A program made the translations under genes and the position numbers. The notes beneath the pieces were generated by a model. That model was given only the letters and a program-made list of their open reading frames with translations, was not told where the DNA came from and ran no database searches. Positions 351 through 62,879 of a DNA stretch of 64,000 bases are shown piece after piece. Numbering within the stretch: position 1 is the first letter of the stretch; every line of letters begins with the position of its first letter. The DNA is from Candidatus Gastranaerophilales bacterium (lineage in GTDB: Bacteria > Cyanobacteriota > Vampirovibrionia > Gastranaerophilales > Gastranaerophilaceae): contig CALUTP010000022.1 in the NCBI GenBank assembly GCA_944323725.1, positions 62,001-126,000 of the forward strand, in the 5' to 3' direction.

Positions 351-1868
351 TTAGCCAAAGATTTTGAATGTAGATTCGACATTCTTTTCAATAACTCGTT
401 GTACTGCATCCATTTCTGTTGAAATTGCATCTTGTTCTGTATCTAATTGTTTTAATCTTAATTCTAAATTCTTGTCTTCTAATTGAGTAATCTCTATTTT
501 ATTATTTATATCTTCTATAGCTTTATCATAAGTTGTTTTATCATATTCGTACTGATTCATTGCATCATTGTATGCATCTTGATCAGTAATAGTTTCAGTT
601 GTTAACGCATAAGTAACTTCATCTTCTGTGCCAGGATTAAGTGTAATATTTATATATCTTCCTGAAGTATCTTGCTCAAGTTTAGCAGTTGTCCCCTTAA
701 TTTCGTTTGTTGTTCTGCTAGTGCCAATTTTATATGCCTCAATATAGGATAGGCTACCGCTTGTCGTATCCTTATATATTGCATTTTCAAGATCATTTAC
801 TTTGTAAAAATAAGGTTCCCAAGCTCCACTTGTGGTGTTTTGAATATATCTTACCATCCAGGCTCCACCGCCAAATTTTTGTGTAAGCATTGTAATATAT
901 TCGTTTTCTTCATTTTCCAATTCATTTAGTTGAGCTGCTGATAGTGTAGACAAATAGGCATCATTACCAGTATATTTTGTTATAAGACCATTTTCATCTC
1001 TTTCTGCCTCTTCTATTTTACCTAATGATCTTAATTTAGTTCCTCCTATATAGTAGATATCAGCTTCATTTCCAAAACTATTAATTAATTTAGTAACTCT
1101 GTTTTTAAGGTAGTCCTTTCTAGCTTGTGGAACATTATTACCTCTTTCTGCTCCATCAAGAATTGGTTTTGTTGCATCAACAGTTCCACCAGATACATCT
1201 TTTAAAAATTCATATAATAAATCAACGATTTCTTGTTGTTCTGGAGTCCCTACTAATTGTGCACTAATTTTATCCATTAAAACTTTGTTGCCATTTGAAC
1301 CTGAGGAAGCGGTAGTAGTCCACCAGCGAGAGTTTGTATAATTTTTATCCATTCCAAATGGAAATACAGTGAGTTTATTTCCATCAGAAGTAGTATAATC
1401 TCCAGCTACTAACATGTGAGTTAATGTGTGAGCAAAGTGTGCTGCATCATAATTTTGTATTGCCGTAGTATAGCAACCTCCATTAGTACCTGTTAAAAAT
1501 TGTTCATATAATTCTCTATTAATTGGGGTTTCAGTTAATCTAGTTACAACGTGAGATGGTGTAGATACGATAGAATTGTCATCTTGATAACTTCTTGTAT
1601 ATGAAATTAAATAATTACCATCACCTTGTGCAATAAGGGAAGTAATACAATTGGAAAGTGCTCCATCAGTAAAGGTATATACTGTTTTTGTATAATCTTC
1701 TACTGAAGGTGGAACTGGAACACTCATTCCTAATAATTGGTTGTAATAATTGGCAGATTGATTAGAAAGGGTAGTTCTTTGCTGATTTATTTGCTGCCCT
1801 TCATATTCAACATTAGTTTTTCTAGCTGTAAGCCCTAAAAATCGAGCTTGCGATGCTGCCATTCCCAT
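351..1868 (-). CDS. MG-family paralogue A: conserved-ends coiled-coil protein, 505 aa, function unknown
   Basis: Unrecognised function. It starts MGMAASQARFLGLTARK and ends in a predicted coiled coil with LDTEQDAISTEMDAV and KNVESTFKIFG. The first 48 residues are identical to those of the 361-aa protein at 16029-17114, and the last ~120 residues are almost identical. The middle (about residues 113-275) carries a ~150-residue segment absent from the paralogue. There is no signal peptide and no membrane segment. Many codons differ synonymously between the two genes while the end sequences hold, so the ends look selected. A Shine-Dalgarno AAAGGGA precedes the ATG at 1868. Conserved helical ends around a variable centre resemble flagellin, hook-associated and needle proteins in layout only; I see no sequence match to them. 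A half-site of the palindrome described at 17198 lies upstream (about 1930-1942). Confidence 0.85.
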   Translation of the reverse strand: MGMAASQARFLGLTARKTNVEYEGQQINQQRTTLSNQSANYYNQLLGMSVPVPPSVEDYTKTVYTFTDGALSNCITSLIAQGDGNYLISYTRSYQDDNSIVSTPSHVVTRLTETPINRELYEQFLTGTNGGCYTTAIQNYDAAHFAHTLTHMLVAGDYTTSDGNKLTVFPFGMDKNYTNSRWWTTTASSGSNGNKVLMDKISAQLVGTPEQQEIVDLLYEFLKDVSGGTVDATKPILDGAERGNNVPQARKDYLKNRVTKLINSFGNEADIYYIGGTKLRSLGKIEEAERDENGLITKYTGNDAYLSTLSAAQLNELENEENEYITMLTQKFGGGAWMVRYIQNTTSGAWEPYFYKVNDLENAIYKDTTSGSLSYIEAYKIGTSRTTNEIKGTTAKLEQDTSGRYINITLNPGTEDEVTYALTTETITDQDAYNDAMNQYEYDKTTYDKAIEDINNKIEITQLEDKNLELRLKQLDTEQDAISTEMDAVQRVIEKNVESTFKIFG

Positions 1869-1951
1869 TATTGGATTCCCTTTGATTATTTCCCAGTTAT
1901 ATAACGGTATTTTATGATTAAATCTTTAAATAATGTTACAAAACTTAAAAT

Positions 1952-16028: not shown

Positions 16029-17114
16029 TTAACCGAATGTTTTGAATGTAGATTCAACGTTCTTTTCGATAACTTTTTGAACAGCATCCATTTCTGTTGA
16101 AATAGCATCTTGTTCAGTATCTAACTGTTTCAATCTTAATTCTAAGTTTTTATCTTCAAGCTGAATGATTTCTATCTTATTATTAATATCTTCGATAGCT
16201 TTATCATATGTTGTTTTGTCATACTCGTACTGATTCATTGCATCATTATATGCATCTTGGTCAGTTGTAGTTTGAGTAGTTAATGCATAAGTGATTTCAT
16301 CGTCTGTTCCAGGATTCAAAGTGATGTTAATATATCTTCCAGAAGTATCCTGTTCAAGTTTAGCAGTTGTACCTTTGATTTCATCAGTAACTCTTTCAGA
16401 GCCAGTTGCATAAGCTTGAATAAATGATTGAGAAGCACCAGTTTTGTCACTATAGATAGTAGTATCCTTAGTCAAATCATTAGTTTTGTAGAAGACTGGA
16501 TTCCAAGTGCCACTTGTTGTATCTTGTTTATAGTAAACTTGATAAGCATCATCTGCGCTAGCTTGACCTTTATTGTATTTTTGGTCTAACTTTTCTTTGT
16601 AAGCTTGTTCTTCTTGTAACAATTTTACAAGTTGAGGTTCAGTCAAAGTTGAAAGATATTCATCTTCTTCTGCGAATGCTTTAAATTCTTCAGTAAGTGC
16701 ATCCCCTGTTCCATCAAGTCCTTCTCCAAGTGTTCTAAGTTGTTTTGCACCTACGCTGTAAACATAGTTTCCAGCGTTGCCGCTTCTGGTGATAATTGAA
16801 GAAGTTGATGCAACCACTGAAGTATCATCAGTGTAACTTCTTGTGTAGCTTACCAAGAATTCGCCATCCCCTTGTGCGATTAATGATGTTACTACGTTTT
16901 CTAATGCACCATCTGTAAATGAATAAACAGTTTTTGTATAGTCATCTACTGAAGGTGGTACTGGAACTTCCATACCTAACAACTGGTTATAGTAGTTTGC
17001 AGATTGGTTAGATAGGGTTGTTCTTTGTTGGTTAATTTGTTGACCTTCATATTCAACATTTGTTTTCCTTGCGGTAAGGCCTAAGAACCTTGCCTGTGAT
17101 GCTGCCATTCCCAT
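16029..17114 (-). CDS. MG-family paralogue B: conserved-ends coiled-coil protein, 361 aa, function unknown
   Basis: Shorter sister of the 505-aa protein at 351. Residues 1-48 are identical, residues 49-110 are close (VPVPPSVDDYTKTVYSFTDG), and the C-terminal ~120 residues (GTTAKLEQDTSGRYINITL ... KNVESTFKTFG) differ at only a handful of positions. The middle is a different, shorter Glu/Gln-rich helical segment. No signal peptide, membrane segment or cysteine. The start has a strong Shine-Dalgarno (AAGGAAAGGG, 11-20 bases upstream of ATG). A long 3' stem-loop, a strong terminator and an upstream palindrome suggest a highly expressed, regulated monocistronic gene. Layout recalls flagellin-type export substrates without sequence identity to them. 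Structural or surface role is inference. Confidence 0.88.
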   Translation of the reverse strand: MGMAASQARFLGLTARKTNVEYEGQQINQQRTTLSNQSANYYNQLLGMEVPVPPSVDDYTKTVYSFTDGALENVVTSLIAQGDGEFLVSYTRSYTDDTSVVASTSSIITRSGNAGNYVYSVGAKQLRTLGEGLDGTGDALTEEFKAFAEEDEYLSTLTEPQLVKLLQEEQAYKEKLDQKYNKGQASADDAYQVYYKQDTTSGTWNPVFYKTNDLTKDTTIYSDKTGASQSFIQAYATGSERVTDEIKGTTAKLEQDTSGRYINITLNPGTDDEITYALTTQTTTDQDAYNDAMNQYEYDKTTYDKAIEDINNKIEIIQLEDKNLELRLKQLDTEQDAISTEMDAVQKVIEKNVESTFKTFG

Positions 17115-17197
17115 AGCATATTCCCTTTCCTTTTTTCTTTGCTTGTGATTTATGTATCGGCATGTTGATTTAAAAACTTTAATTTTTGTTTTAATAT

Positions 17198-17216
17198 CTG
17201 TAACATTTCTTTACAA
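17198..17216 (-). promoter_or_regulatory. Palindromic operator candidate upstream of paralogue B
   Basis: CTGTAA-N7-TTACAA, an inverted repeat with one flanking mismatch, centred about 93 bases before the start codon. Read on the minus strand it is TTGTAA-AGAAATG-TTACAG, matching 17 of 19 bases of the site at 46945-46963. The half-sites fit the published GlnR/TnrA consensus TGTNA-N7-TNACA, but no regulator of that type is in the window, so the binding protein is unknown. Confidence 0.5.
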
Positions 17217-19025: not shown

Positions 19026-19249
19026 ATTTAACCCTTTCTTCTTAAACTATAAATACGCAATTTCATCACCCTTATTTGGGGTAATAACAGCATACCACAA
19101 AAAATATCTAGTCAATTGTAATTATTATATTTTTTAGAACTAATCCTTAAGAATTAGTCAGATAGTGCTATCTGGCATTAACAAAACTTAACAATAAGGC
19201 AATTTAATACAGAAAAAGCACTTTATTTAATTATAGGGGATATATTAAT

Positions 19250-20638
19250 ATGGGAATGGCAGCAGGAAAAATTGCATCTGTAGCACGTACTTTTGTAAAA
19301 GCGTGCAAGAAAAAGAGTATTCTTCAAACAAAACCTAATATTTTTCACGGGATAAACCCGACACTTACATATCCAAAAAGCGGAGAACCCTTTGCTCTGC
19401 CCAGATATATTTCTAAAGAGATGCAAGAAGTAAGGCAAATGAACAAAATTTCAATATATGAAGCGCGTGCTGCACAAAGAGCTGATTCTGTTTCATTTCC
19501 TAAAGCTTCTGCAGAAGATTTGCAGCGTCTGACTGCAAATACTTTTGAAGCAAGCTACTCAAGGTGTGTCTATGTAAGACCGAAAGACGGTGAGATTTTT
19601 AATCTTTTAAAGACAGGAGAAACAAAAGACGGTAAATATATTATGAGGGTGCTTGATAGTGAGGGTGCCTTCATTAAAGAAGTACAGGTTAAGCCTAAAG
19701 TTCATGTTATTATAGATGATTTAAGCGAAAAGTCTTTTGACCGGCATAATCCTGACTGGAGATTTCAGGAACTGTATAATTTATCACATGCTGAATATAT
19801 GAGTATCGGAGCTCGTAAAAATAATCCTTTTGAAAAAGTTGTCATATTTAATGTTTCAGAGCCTTGCAAAAATGGAAAAGTCAATGATGAGCTAAAGGTG
19901 CTTGAAATATACAGAGATCTTGCAAAGAAAATACAAAACGGCGAAAATATGGATATTATATCCATATCACGCGGTGCCGGCGGAATAGGACATGATTTAC
20001 CGGGTAGAATTACCGGCAGGGATTACAATGATATAATGACGAATGAATCATATCGAGCCCTTGTACAAATTGCGAACCAAAACGGAGTGAGAGTGCTAAA
20101 TTCCGCGGGAAACGGCGGGCCTTCAAAACTAAATAGAAACCTTTTGAACAGCGGAGCCGAGGGTGTAGGAGCACTGGGGCGCAACGGAAAAGTAATTGAG
20201 TATTCTTCAACAAGAAATACTTACTGGACGCAGCATTATGAACGCAGCGGCTTCCCTGTAATTTTCAGCAAGGATGGTATTAATATTACCGGTACCTCAG
20301 GAATTGATATTCCAGTAAAAAATATGCTTATAGGACAGGAGAATAATGCAGTACAGGCAAGATTTTATAGATTGAAAAGCATGATGCAAAAAATATCCGA
20401 CGAGCACTGGAAAACTACTGACAAAGCTTTAAAAGCAGAGCTTGAAAATAAGTTTAATTTTCTGAAAGGATGCCTGGATAAAATCGGCAACTGGTACTAT
20501 GTTCTAACCGTTGACAGCAGAACAGGCAAGCTTCAGATACCGGAGATGTGTTTTGGAAGCTGCGGCGGCACCTCGCTTGCGACAGCTGCAAGGGCGGCTA
20601 AAATTAACCTTCACGAAACAATGAAAGAAGTTTTGTAA
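19250..20638 (+). CDS. Subtilisin-like serine protease (S8) with MGMAA N-terminus
   Basis: 462 aa. The S8 fold can be followed: KVHVIIDDLSE (catalytic Asp strand), LSHAEYMSIGA (likely catalytic His helix), MDIISISRGAGG (core strand), VLNSAGNGG (oxyanion Asn) and CGGTSLATAARAA (catalytic Ser in GTS). The His loop lacks the standard HGTH form, so activity is probable, not certain. There is no signal peptide; instead it begins MGMAAGKIASVARTF, like the MG-family proteins at 351, 16029 and 60822, then a basic segment. Its G+C content (about 50% in the middle) is well above the surroundings and it abuts the PLP lyase gene with similar composition. AGGGGA lies before the ATG. Possible role: processing or export-linked protease; inference only. 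Confidence 0.8.
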   Translation: MGMAAGKIASVARTFVKACKKKSILQTKPNIFHGINPTLTYPKSGEPFALPRYISKEMQEVRQMNKISIYEARAAQRADSVSFPKASAEDLQRLTANTFEASYSRCVYVRPKDGEIFNLLKTGETKDGKYIMRVLDSEGAFIKEVQVKPKVHVIIDDLSEKSFDRHNPDWRFQELYNLSHAEYMSIGARKNNPFEKVVIFNVSEPCKNGKVNDELKVLEIYRDLAKKIQNGENMDIISISRGAGGIGHDLPGRITGRDYNDIMTNESYRALVQIANQNGVRVLNSAGNGGPSKLNRNLLNSGAEGVGALGRNGKVIEYSSTRNTYWTQHYERSGFPVIFSKDGINITGTSGIDIPVKNMLIGQENNAVQARFYRLKSMMQKISDEHWKTTDKALKAELENKFNFLKGCLDKIGNWYYVLTVDSRTGKLQIPEMCFGSCGGTSLATAARAAKINLHETMKEVL

Positions 20639-34063: not shown

Positions 34064-34426
34064 TTATACGAATGAAGAAAATCCACCACCAGAAGAACAA
34101 GATGCTCCGGCACTTGCTCCAGAAAAGCTTCCACAACTACCTGATGAAACTCCAGAGCAATCTGTTCCGATTGTTGCAACTGCTGTAGCAAATCCTGCCA
34201 TAAAATTAGAAGATGCTACAGTCTCTCCATCTGTATATGGTGTATAATTTGAAAAATCAATTGTTTGAGCAAAAGGGTTTGAAGGACTAAAAGTATCATA
34301 TGTATTTTTTGCAAACCAGCTTTTTTCTGCTTGATAAGCAAGTGAACCTGCAGTTTCAGCAGTTTCTACCGGTTTTGCATTTACTGTGTTATTAAGATTG
34401 CTGGATGATTTAGTTTCGATATTCAT
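34064..34426 (-). CDS. Small protein with Ser/Gly/Cys-rich C-terminal tail, 120 aa
   Basis: Begins MNIETKSSSNLNNTVNAKPV; the middle is ordinary (SFMAGFATAVATIG-like, SWFAKNTYDTFSPSNPF), while the last ~35 residues (about 87-120) are almost only S, G, C, A and F (TDCSGVSSGSCGSFS, then ASCSSGGGFSSFV). AAGGAGAG lies before the ATG at 34426, and the terminator at 33995 shows a dedicated short transcript. The tail composition resembles azole-forming RiPP cores or repetitive Gly/Cys tails of unknown small proteins, but no cyclodehydratase or other maturation enzyme lies nearby. A degenerate version of the AGAAATG/TNACA motif lies upstream (34507-34525). Function unknown. Confidence 0.72.
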   Translation of the reverse strand: MNIETKSSSNLNNTVNAKPVETAETAGSLAYQAEKSWFAKNTYDTFSPSNPFAQTIDFSNYTPYTDGETVASSNFMAGFATAVATIGTDCSGVSSGSCGSFSGASAGASCSSGGGFSSFV

Positions 34427-34580
34427 AAACTCTCCTTGATCTATTCTGTCCTCGTTACATATATATAAAAAATTTAAAAATTGCCTGATTTCAGCATGCT
34501 TATTTTTGTGTTACATTTCTTAATGAAAGTATCAAAAATTTATTTTTACAGGTATTCTATACTTAGAAAGGATTTTGTGT

Positions 34581-46944: not shown

Positions 46945-46963
46945 TTGTAAAGAAATATTACAA
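46945..46963 (+). promoter_or_regulatory. Perfect palindromic operator candidate upstream of the 170-aa MG-family gene
   Basis: TTGTAA-AGAAATA-TTACAA, a perfect 6+6 inverted repeat, centred ~86 bases before ATG 47040. It agrees at 17 of 19 bases with the site upstream of paralogue B. The half-sites fit the GlnR/TnrA consensus TGTNA-N7-TNACA; the distance of the inner GTA/TAC elements (N9) argues against NtcA (GTA-N8-TAC). Confidence 0.55.
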
Positions 46964-47039
46964 GATATTTATATAAAAGCAATTATCACGAGAGTATATA
47001 CTTTATATATTTAAGAGTAATAAACACGAAGGACGAGAC

Positions 47040-47552
47040 ATGGGTTTCTTAACCGGCGCATTTCTGAAAATGTATACAACACGAATGCGGATTCAGCTCC
47101 AACATCAGCTGACCACAATCACCATGCGTCAAAACCGTATCACTAAACAAATAGGTGATATGGAAAAGAAACTTACCCAAATGAAACAAGCTGCTACTAT
47201 GGGTGTTAGTGCTAGTATGCAAATGCAGAATGCTGAAGCTGCAAGCATATTCCAGCAAGCATCTGCTAGCGGAGATACTAACGCAATGACACAAGCTAAC
47301 GTACAATACCAAAATGCAATGGCTCTAAATGCTATGAATGCTCAAATGTCTAAGAGTATGATCGAGCAGCAATATGAACAAATGAGTGAAGCACAATTAG
47401 AACCATTAAAGAATATGGAAGAACAGCTAGCTATGGAAAAAGCAAACCTCGAGTCAAGAATCAAACTCATCGAAGGTCAAGAACAAGCTTCCAGAGAAAT
47501 GGAAAAATCAAGTCAAAAAGACTTCGTTCCGGAATACACCGGAGGGGGTTAA
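47040..47552 (+). CDS. Coiled-coil MG-family protein, 170 aa, function unknown
   Basis: Starts MGFLTGAFLKMYTTRMR, then a Gln/Met-rich coiled coil (ITMRQNRITKQIGDMEKKL; AMNAQMSKSMIEQQYEQMSE; LEPLKNMEEQLAMEKANLES) and a flexible acidic tail (QKDFVPEYTGGG). Alanine/glutamine/methionine-rich, no cysteine, no signal peptide. The rich Shine-Dalgarno region, a strong terminator at 47572 and optimal-looking codons suggest high expression. Shared MG-hydrophobic start and a common operator link it to the paralogue set at 16029 and 60822. Plausibly a filament- or needle-type subunit or a chaperone for export; inference only. Confidence 0.82.
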   Translation: MGFLTGAFLKMYTTRMRIQLQHQLTTITMRQNRITKQIGDMEKKLTQMKQAATMGVSASMQMQNAEAASIFQQASASGDTNAMTQANVQYQNAMALNAMNAQMSKSMIEQQYEQMSEAQLEPLKNMEEQLAMEKANLESRIKLIEGQEQASREMEKSSQKDFVPEYTGGG

Positions 47553-60704: not shown

Positions 60705-60771
60705 TTGTTAAAAATTGTAAAACTTAAGTGATACATTTTAAAGATTTAACCCCAAATAGCCGTATTCCATA

Positions 60772-60786
60772 GTAAGAATATGTTAC
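60772..60786 (+). promoter_or_regulatory. Weaker palindrome GTAA-N7-TTAC upstream of paralogue C
   Basis: GTAA-GAATATG-TTAC, the core of the operator seen at 17198 and 46945, centred ~43 bases before the ATG. The flanking T and A of the full TTGTAA/TTACAA site are missing, so significance is modest. Confidence 0.35.
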
Positions 60787-60821: not shown

Positions 60822-62879
60822 ATGGGATTGGCAGCATCACAAGCTAGATTATTATCAATCACATCTCGTATGGCTGACAACGAGTTGAGATCTCAGATGA
60901 TAAATAATGCTAAAATGCGCCTTACTGCAGAAAGTTCTCAAGTCAGTGAGGAGTACGTTGATGCCTTAAATAGAACCCAGCTTATGATGAAGAATTATAA
61001 CACTGCCGGAGAGTCACAATATCAGACATTAACATTTAATAATTTAACAGCTTATAGTGCCTACAATAATCAGTATGGAATTAAAAATAAAGGTGGAGAA
61101 CTTCTAGTTTCAGAATCAGATGCAGCAAAATTTGAAGAAGCCTTTAAAGAAGCTAAATTAGATGAATCAATTCTTGAAGGTGATACCGAAGGACTTAATG
61201 CAAAAGCCTTAGAAGAGTTTTTAAAATCATATGGGTTGGAAAAATCTACAACTTACTTTGAAAATCAGGATGTATTCACAATTGATCCAAATATTCAAAA
61301 AATGTTTGAAGGCGATATGATTTATAATACAGATGGAACCAGAGTATCTGGAATCCATTACGGATATGAATTATCTAAAACATCAACTGAATATGGTATA
61401 TATCTTGAATTATTAAATGATTATACCAAAACAAGCGATGCTTACACTAATGCGACAATAAAAGAAATGCAAGATACTGTATTTAACACAACAAGTGGAG
61501 GGCAAACCTATAAAGAATGGTATAATAAAATGGCCCAGTTTGATGCTGTTTTAAATATAGTAAGTGATGAAGATGGCAATGAACATATAGACACTCCAGC
61601 TGATGCAGTAAACCAAGCAACACAGCTTAAAAATGCAATGCAAGAAGTCTACAATGCAATAAAAAGTCATTTAAAAAAATCCGAAGAAGGTGGAGATGGA
61701 ACATTTGCAACTGCAATGGAAGAATACCTCTCTATGCCAGGTATAGGCTTAACTCAGTATGATGAAATTGGTGTAGCACAAAATCGTGTTCCACTTGGTA
61801 CTGTCGTACTAACTCACCCTGTAACAGGAGAGCCTTGTAAGTGGATAGTATATGATGAATCACTTCTAGAAAGTCTTGATCAAGAATCATTAGACTCAAA
61901 TGGTTTACCTCCTCTAGACACAGTTATTACAGGAGATTACTTAGATGGAACCTATACAGAAGTAATTTCATCAACTGTAACTGACGTAGATTATGTAGAA
62001 TCAGTAATCGCAATGTATGAATACTTCCAAACAAATGTTATGTCTGCACTAAAAAGAGAAGACTTCTCTGCTGGTACAGAAGCACAACAAGCAAAAAGTG
62101 AATACTACGCCGCTGCTAAAAAACTATCAATGTTTATATTCGGACAAGATGTTGGCTCAGATTTTTATGACAAACTTGATGATATGGAATGGTGTGCTGG
62201 CAAACAAGTCTGGGATGAAACAACAGAGATGTGGGGTACCCTATTCCCAACTACAGCACTTGATCCTAGTGAGGGCGGGGTAGTTGTTACCGATGAATCC
62301 CAATGGGTAGATGTACCTTTGCAAATAAAGAATCCTGATGGCACAGTTACAACAATAAATACAAAATATCAACCAAACTTCCAAGCAATTTTAGACGTAT
62401 ATTTATGCGATAAAATGATGGAAGAATATGGAGTACCAAAATATACCTGGATTGATGTTAATAATCCTAATGAAAATGCAGATGCAAAAGCTCAATGGTA
62501 CACAAATTTATTTGAAAGAATGCTCGAAGGTGGATATAAAGCTATTGAAAACGGCTTAGCATCAAGCTCTGAATGGCTTCAATTTGCATTTGAAAGTGGC
62601 TTAGTATCTATGGAACAGGTAAATGACGACAATAATTGGATTTCGACAATGTATACAAACTGTAGCGATATAACAGAGTCTTCAATTGAAATTGACATTA
62701 CAAAAGCTGAAGCTGAATATAACAAAGCTATGAAGAAAATTGAAGTTAAAGATAAACGCTACGATTTAGAATTAAAAAATATAGATACTGAACACCAATC
62801 ACTACAAACCGAATATGATTCTATAAAATCGGTCATAGATAAAAATGTTGAACGAAACTTTAAGTATTTCAATGCATAA
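60822..62879 (+). CDS. MG-family paralogue C: conserved-ends coiled-coil protein, 685 aa, function unknown
   Basis: Distant, larger member of the family. It starts MGLAASQARLLSITSRM (A/B: MGMAASQARFLGLTARK) and ends IEVKDKRYDLELKNIDTEHQ then SLQTEYDSIKSVIDKNVERNFKYF, matching the A/B tail (LELRLKQLDTEQDAIST, VIEKNVESTFK). The ~550-residue centre is acidic, low in cysteine, and unlike A or B apart from mid-protein PVTGEPCKWIVYDES; it has no clear domain. AAAGGAAAAC precedes the ATG. No signal peptide. Architecture suggests a filament, hook-like or tail-like protein exported by a signal-independent route; no such exporter lies in the window. Confidence 0.85.
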   Translation: MGLAASQARLLSITSRMADNELRSQMINNAKMRLTAESSQVSEEYVDALNRTQLMMKNYNTAGESQYQTLTFNNLTAYSAYNNQYGIKNKGGELLVSESDAAKFEEAFKEAKLDESILEGDTEGLNAKALEEFLKSYGLEKSTTYFENQDVFTIDPNIQKMFEGDMIYNTDGTRVSGIHYGYELSKTSTEYGIYLELLNDYTKTSDAYTNATIKEMQDTVFNTTSGGQTYKEWYNKMAQFDAVLNIVSDEDGNEHIDTPADAVNQATQLKNAMQEVYNAIKSHLKKSEEGGDGTFATAMEEYLSMPGIGLTQYDEIGVAQNRVPLGTVVLTHPVTGEPCKWIVYDESLLESLDQESLDSNGLPPLDTVITGDYLDGTYTEVISSTVTDVDYVESVIAMYEYFQTNVMSALKREDFSAGTEAQQAKSEYYAAAKKLSMFIFGQDVGSDFYDKLDDMEWCAGKQVWDETTEMWGTLFPTTALDPSEGGVVVTDESQWVDVPLQIKNPDGTVTTINTKYQPNFQAILDVYLCDKMMEEYGVPKYTWIDVNNPNENADAKAQWYTNLFERMLEGGYKAIENGLASSSEWLQFAFESGLVSMEQVNDDNNWISTMYTNCSDITESSIEIDITKAEAEYNKAMKKIEVKDKRYDLELKNIDTEHQSLQTEYDSIKSVIDKNVERNFKYFNA

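Follow-up and report, generated by a model that had tools for sequence, protein, structure and literature searches.

A candidate HLR1-type operator upstream of MG-family genes in a Candidatus Gastranaerophilales bacterium

MG-family genes and upstream palindromes in the window

The window, i.e., the whole 64,000-nucleotide stretch of DNA analysed here (G000:C22:62001-126000), belongs to a genome of 1.91 Mb (99% complete) that was scanned in full. It contains three paralogues of the MG family, namely A (351..1868, minus strand, 505 aa), B (16029..17114, minus strand, 361 aa) and C (60822..62879, plus strand, 685 aa), together with gene 47040 (47040..47552, plus strand), whose 170-aa product has no family match, the small gene 34064 (34064..34426, minus strand), coding for a Ser/Gly-rich protein of 120 aa, and gene 19250 (19250..20638, plus strand, 462 aa), a possible further member of the set whose subtilase match is weak and below the cut-off. 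The MG proteins displayed no family match above the cut-off. In the structure model of paralogue B, whose overall confidence is low (mean pLDDT 55.8), confident helices were found at positions 3-47 and 286-360, with a poorly modelled middle, and a Foldseek search of this model against the PDB returned nothing with E ≤0.001. The predicted helical ends and poor middle of B are reminiscent of flagellar axial proteins, though no fold match was found, and our guess is that the MG proteins are surface or exported proteins.

An earlier note on this DNA had described a palindrome shared by the upstream regions of these genes, and its positions were confirmed. The perfect TTGTAA-N7-TTACAA palindrome before gene 47040 lies at 46945-46963 (TTGTAAAGAAATATTACAA), the minus-strand copy before paralogue B lies at 17198-17216 (TTGTAAAGAAATGTTACAG) and agrees with it at 17 of 19 bases, and a GTAA-N7-TTAC core is present before paralogue C at 60772-60786. 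The half-sites before A and 34064 are also present, and a matrix scan (see below) identified both as degenerate copies of a direct repeat.

Allowing two or fewer mismatches, the palindrome was not enriched in the window (76 seen vs 85 expected), so that its weight comes only from position, genome counts and orthologues. The perfect TGTAA-N7-TTACA form occurs twice in the window and 17 times genome-wide, against one genome-wide occurrence in the reversed control, and a genome scan with the extended 19-mer at one mismatch or fewer returned 43 sites vs 25 in the control. Summed over 60 genomes of the family, own genome included, 611 palindromes were counted vs 322 in the control, the palindrome count being higher than the control in 49 genomes, equal in 3 and lower in 8. 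Twelve of the 17 perfect sites are followed, in one direction or in both, by the start of an ORF of 60 aa or more at a distance of 60-101 bp, one of these ORFs (L005) being doubtful and antisense to another; the other five sites do not fit this rule.

Direct repeat and palindrome in orthologous promoters

Upstream regions were available for 24 of 30 loci of gene 47040 and its relatives, and 18 of them could be anchored on their promoters (unanchored: L115, L117, L126, L128, L129 and L133). The orthologues of 47040 have a common upstream arrangement, in which a TTGTAA-like half-site and a second half-site are followed, after 16-17 bp, by GCAAT and TTATAT, about 24 bp apart. The GCAAT...TATATACTTTATATATTTA arrangement (46979-47020 in the window) is in itself an unusual promoter, conserved in the orthologues and common to 47040-type genes.

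Across the 18 promoters that were anchored, TGTWAM-N4-TGTWAM was present as a direct repeat with a mean of 0.61 mismatches in 12 positions (one or fewer in 16 of 18), while the other direct-repeat spacings from N1 to N9 gave means of 1.94-3.22. The boxes of WalR (YycF) and PhoB are likewise OmpR-family direct repeats with TGT-like half-sites, and have an 11-bp period; the corresponding N5 spacing fits the promoters studied here with 2.06 mismatches, vs 0.61 at N4. The palindrome at N7 averaged 1.94 mismatches in 10 positions, with one or fewer in only 4 of 18 promoters: its second arm, TTACA, is mostly lost, whereas the direct repeat is kept, and some promoters, e.g., that at L108 (TGTAAAGTTTTGTAAA), are pure direct repeats. 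Conversely, of the 17 sites in the own genome that are perfect palindromes, 14 can also be read as the direct repeat at one mismatch or fewer, against 7.05 when the spacer letters were shuffled. Judged from these sequences, the palindrome is a frequent by-product of the direct repeat, because TGTTACA, a common second half-site plus the next base, itself ends in TTACA.

Read on the other strand, TGTWAM-N4-TGTWAM corresponds to HLR1, the binding site of the cyanobacterial response regulator RpaB. Applied to the 18 promoters, the HLR1 consensus KTTACAWW-N2-KTTACAWW, as given in the review PMC13421787, displayed a mean of 1.61 mismatches in 16 positions vs 4.63 (sd 0.20) after shuffling, and two promoters fit the published consensus perfectly. 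The conserved element is thus very probably to be read as an HLR1-type direct repeat with a 10-bp period, rather than as a palindrome.

HLR1-like boxes and their promoters

The window was scanned with a matrix built from 15 promoters of other genomes; of the 18 anchored promoters, L105 (own genome) and L123 and L125 (poor fit) were omitted. The best five hits lie before 47040 (score 20.3), B (19.0), C (17.4), 19250 (15.9, reversed) and 34064 (11.8). Four window hits exceed 12, and all of them fall between genes rather than in coding DNA; under a second-order Markov background, 0.044 hits of at least 12 would be expected per kb per strand. Paralogue A has a weaker box (10.5), and a few hits without known meaning score above it (11.0-11.1). 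Upstream sequence was available for 11 starts of MG-family genes in the own genome; 10 of them carry a box in the gene's own direction, with scores of 7.7-19.0, L041 being the single MG gene scored without one.

The box before 47040 (TGTAAAGAAA/TATTAC, 46946..46961, plus strand) lies within the palindrome and is followed by GCAATT and TTATAT at the -35 and -10 positions (46979..47008, plus strand), conserved in the orthologues. Before B, the box TGTAAAGAAATGTTAC (17200..17215, minus strand) lies 18 bp from a sigma28-like promoter, TAAAG-N15-GCCGA (17157..17181, minus strand). Before C, where the palindrome core had been pointed out, the best-scoring box is found elsewhere (TGTTAAAAATTGTAAA, 60706..60721, plus strand), 17 bp from TAAAG-N15-GCCGT (60739..60763, plus strand), and the degenerate box of A (TTTTAAGTTTTGTAAC, 1935..1950, minus strand) lies 6 bp from TAAAG-N15-ACCGT (1904..1928, minus strand). 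Promoter geometry or orientation departs from the rule at two genes. The box of 34064 (34510..34525, minus strand) is 41 bp from TTATAT, as at 47040, with no GCAAT at the -35 position; at 19250, a perfect direct repeat (19178..19193, minus strand) is reversed relative to the gene and adjoins GCAATT (19199-19204).

The boxes are located 6-7 or 16-19 bp upstream of a -35 element, the elements being mostly sigma28-like (TAAAG-N15-GCCG), and elements of this type with the same spacing precede 10 MG-family genes. This spacing is that of FliA promoters plus one base. In DNA fetched for the MG proteins or for the window and not selected by motif, promoter-like matches of the two types numbered 23, and 13 of them have an ORF start downstream; 11 of these 13 promoters have a box scoring at least 7, and in all 11 cases the gap to the -35 element is 6-7 or 16-18 bp. 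In shuffled upstream DNA the mean was 0.65 boxes (maximum 5 in 2000) and 0.09 boxes in phase (maximum 4), the number of boxes being a cleaner statistic than the phasing, since the phase classes were set after the first examples had been seen. Further gaps were 19 bp at L271 and, at loci selected by motif, 6 bp (L149), 7 bp (L265) and 18 bp (L037). In relatives' loci fetched for other genes, none of seven sigma28-like promoter matches had a box scoring 9 or more. Going by the promoter elements, the boxes are predicted to be centred near -61 or -51 relative to the start; a shift in spacing by one helical turn would be required by an activator that contacts RNA polymerase from a single face. The earlier note had proposed that these genes form one co-regulated set, a proposal with which the matrix hits, the 10 boxed MG starts and the 11 boxed promoters agree well, and the co-regulation of the MG-type genes appears highly probable.

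A strong box with a sigma28-like promoter was also observed at L276:3257-3310, with a tRNA-Leu on the opposite strand, and may correspond to a small RNA; at L265 and L276 the combination is followed by no long ORF, and Rfam matched only the tRNA on the other strand.

Candidate regulators and related systems

Three OmpR-type DNA-binding genes of the genome score above the cut-off, namely RpaB, L165 and L166. RpaB is encoded at C22:4064-4813, outside the window (equivalog NF045944, 362.1 bits, cut-off 330), and shares 99% identity with its counterpart in a Candidatus Gastranaerophilales MAG, which places the organism in the non-photosynthetic sister group of cyanobacteria. The stretch covering its recognition helix (DTRVVDVHISRLRSKLE) recurs unchanged in a Synechococcus MAG and is unlike those of the other two OmpR-type regulators. 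Among the 80 loci kept as RpaB relatives, 37 display 71-99% identity (Gastranaerophilales, other Vampirovibrionia and unlabelled MAGs), two come from cyanobacterial MAGs (69% and 62%) and the remaining 41 belong to other phyla, with identities not exceeding 49%. With regard to rpaB autoregulation, no clean box was found before rpaB itself, and 38 upstream regions gave scattered weak hits.

With a probability of roughly 70%, we propose that the direct repeat is an HLR1-type operator for which the RpaB orthologue of this genome is the likeliest binder. The two TGTWAM half-sites, arranged head to tail with a 10-bp period, would be occupied by an OmpR-family response regulator in dimeric form, RpaB being the likeliest, on a single helix face and some 61 or 51 bp ahead of the predicted start. 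From there it would activate promoters of two kinds: the sigma28-like kind (TAAAG-N15-GCCG), presumably read by a FliA/WhiG-type sigma factor, and a second kind with GCAAT at -35 and TTATAT at -10. Its targets would be the proteins of the MG family, along with helical and small proteins associated with them.

The genome does encode a FliA/WhiG-family sigma factor (TIGR02479, 243 bits, cut-off 189.6). Among 14 regulator and sigma genes scored, this gene alone has a same-strand hit above 20: a box scoring 20.6 adjoins its start codon (L275:10696-10720, minus strand, G000:C31). The sigma gene L140 has a hit of 18.2 on the opposite strand. A TATAGA -10 element, recognized by eye in this one gene, lies just upstream of the FliA/WhiG box, which would place the box over the start, i.e., in a repressor position, and an RpaB-type box there would suit repression. 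Two short FliA-like sigma paralogues of 201-221 aa, L142 and L143, share an RRYKWYSL/IRYKWYSL motif, L143 being below the curated FliA/WhiG cut-off.

The main rival to RpaB as binder is RpaA (L166), or its paralogue L165, acting at the same boxes. Both genes are present and have RpaA as nearest relative among solved structures, L166 with 273 bits vs 135 for the next; a box-like site scoring 13.8 lies 67 bp upstream of rpaA; competition between RpaA and RpaB at some promoters is described in the available excerpts of PMC13421787, and RpaA may bind such sites too. Nevertheless, the recognition-helix stretches of L165 and L166 are unlike that of RpaB, whose published consensus fits the site, and we regard RpaA or L165 as an unlikely binder.

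Considerably less probable is a regulator bound to the palindrome as such, whether GlnR/TnrA-like (MerR family), Crp/NtcA-like, BlaI-like or MarR-like. The string does fit the GlnR/TnrA consensus (TGTNA-N7-TNACA) to which the earlier note referred, and the BlaI-like and MarR-like genes of the own genome each have a perfect palindrome upstream. However, the regulator genes that the note suggested looking for did not appear above the cut-off: a search of the 99% complete genome with PF13411 (MerR family) gave a sole hit of 15.7 bits, below the 21.6 cut-off, and PF13545 (Crp family) a sole hit of 20.5 bits, below its cut-off, in a protein whose sequence reads as Lrp/AsnC-like. The GlnR/TnrA reading is further weakened by the loss of the second arm in 47040 orthologues. 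BlaI-like and MarR-like regulators acting through the palindrome were rejected, as their relatives lack it: near-perfect palindromes (one mismatch or fewer) occur in 2 of 30 BlaI-like orthologues and 1 of 30 MarR-like relatives, which is no better than at other spacings. As a separate observation, the BlaI/MecI-like gene (L004:1429-1560, orthologues L046-L066) has a conserved TTACAATGTTAG-like element over its -10, likely an autoregulatory operator. Finally, an A+T-rich coincidence, or a core-promoter part without a regulator, agrees with the lack of enrichment of the loose motif in the window, but is very improbable given the sharp optimum at one spacing, the fixed phase to two promoter kinds, the conservation in orthologues, and genome and family counts exceeding the reversed control.

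Binding by RpaB would relate these boxes to the NblS-RpaB/HLR1 system of photosynthetic cyanobacteria, which, according to the available excerpts of PMC13421787 and PMC6331805, likewise relies on a direct repeat with a 10-bp period, of near-identical consensus on the other strand. An RpaB orthologue is present here too. According to the excerpts of PMC13421787, HLR1 activates when located between -66 and -45 and represses when located between -38 and +23; the boxes studied here are predicted to lie before the core promoter, the arrangement described for genes that RpaB activates. On the other hand, photosynthesis genes are not expected as targets in this lineage, as far as the excerpts of PMC3787301 indicate; the targets here are of MG type, with boxes paired with sigma28-like promoters, and the half-sites allow TGTTAA besides TGTAAA.

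RpaA, RpaB and NblS were reported in Melainabacteria in 2013, where a different function was considered possible (excerpts of PMC3787301), and their presence was repeated later (excerpts of PMC5877343 and PMC4040986). Among the matches listed for RpaB/HLR1 with Melainabacteria, Vampirovibrio or Gastranaerophilales, of which the review PMC8066212 names HLR1 and Melainabacteria once each, the excerpts contained no operator or regulon for this lineage.

A tentative wider reading, to which we give somewhat less than an even chance, is that the RpaB-HLR1 code predates the photosynthetic way of life that it serves today. Acting with the FliA/WhiG-type sigma factor, this code might in Gastranaerophilales drive a large protein family with helical ends and variable middles, which may form structures that are exported or lie on the surface, and it might restrain the sigma gene through the box over that gene's start. 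In that case, an envelope or appendage programme of earlier origin would have been the basis of the cyanobacterial light regulon. With a concrete operator and target set, the role of RpaB in the non-photosynthetic sister group of cyanobacteria would become testable, and an uncharacterised paralogous protein family would gain its first regulatory link. RpaB is a light-response regulator in cyanobacteria, and the boxes suggest what its role may be in a gut relative that lacks photosynthesis.
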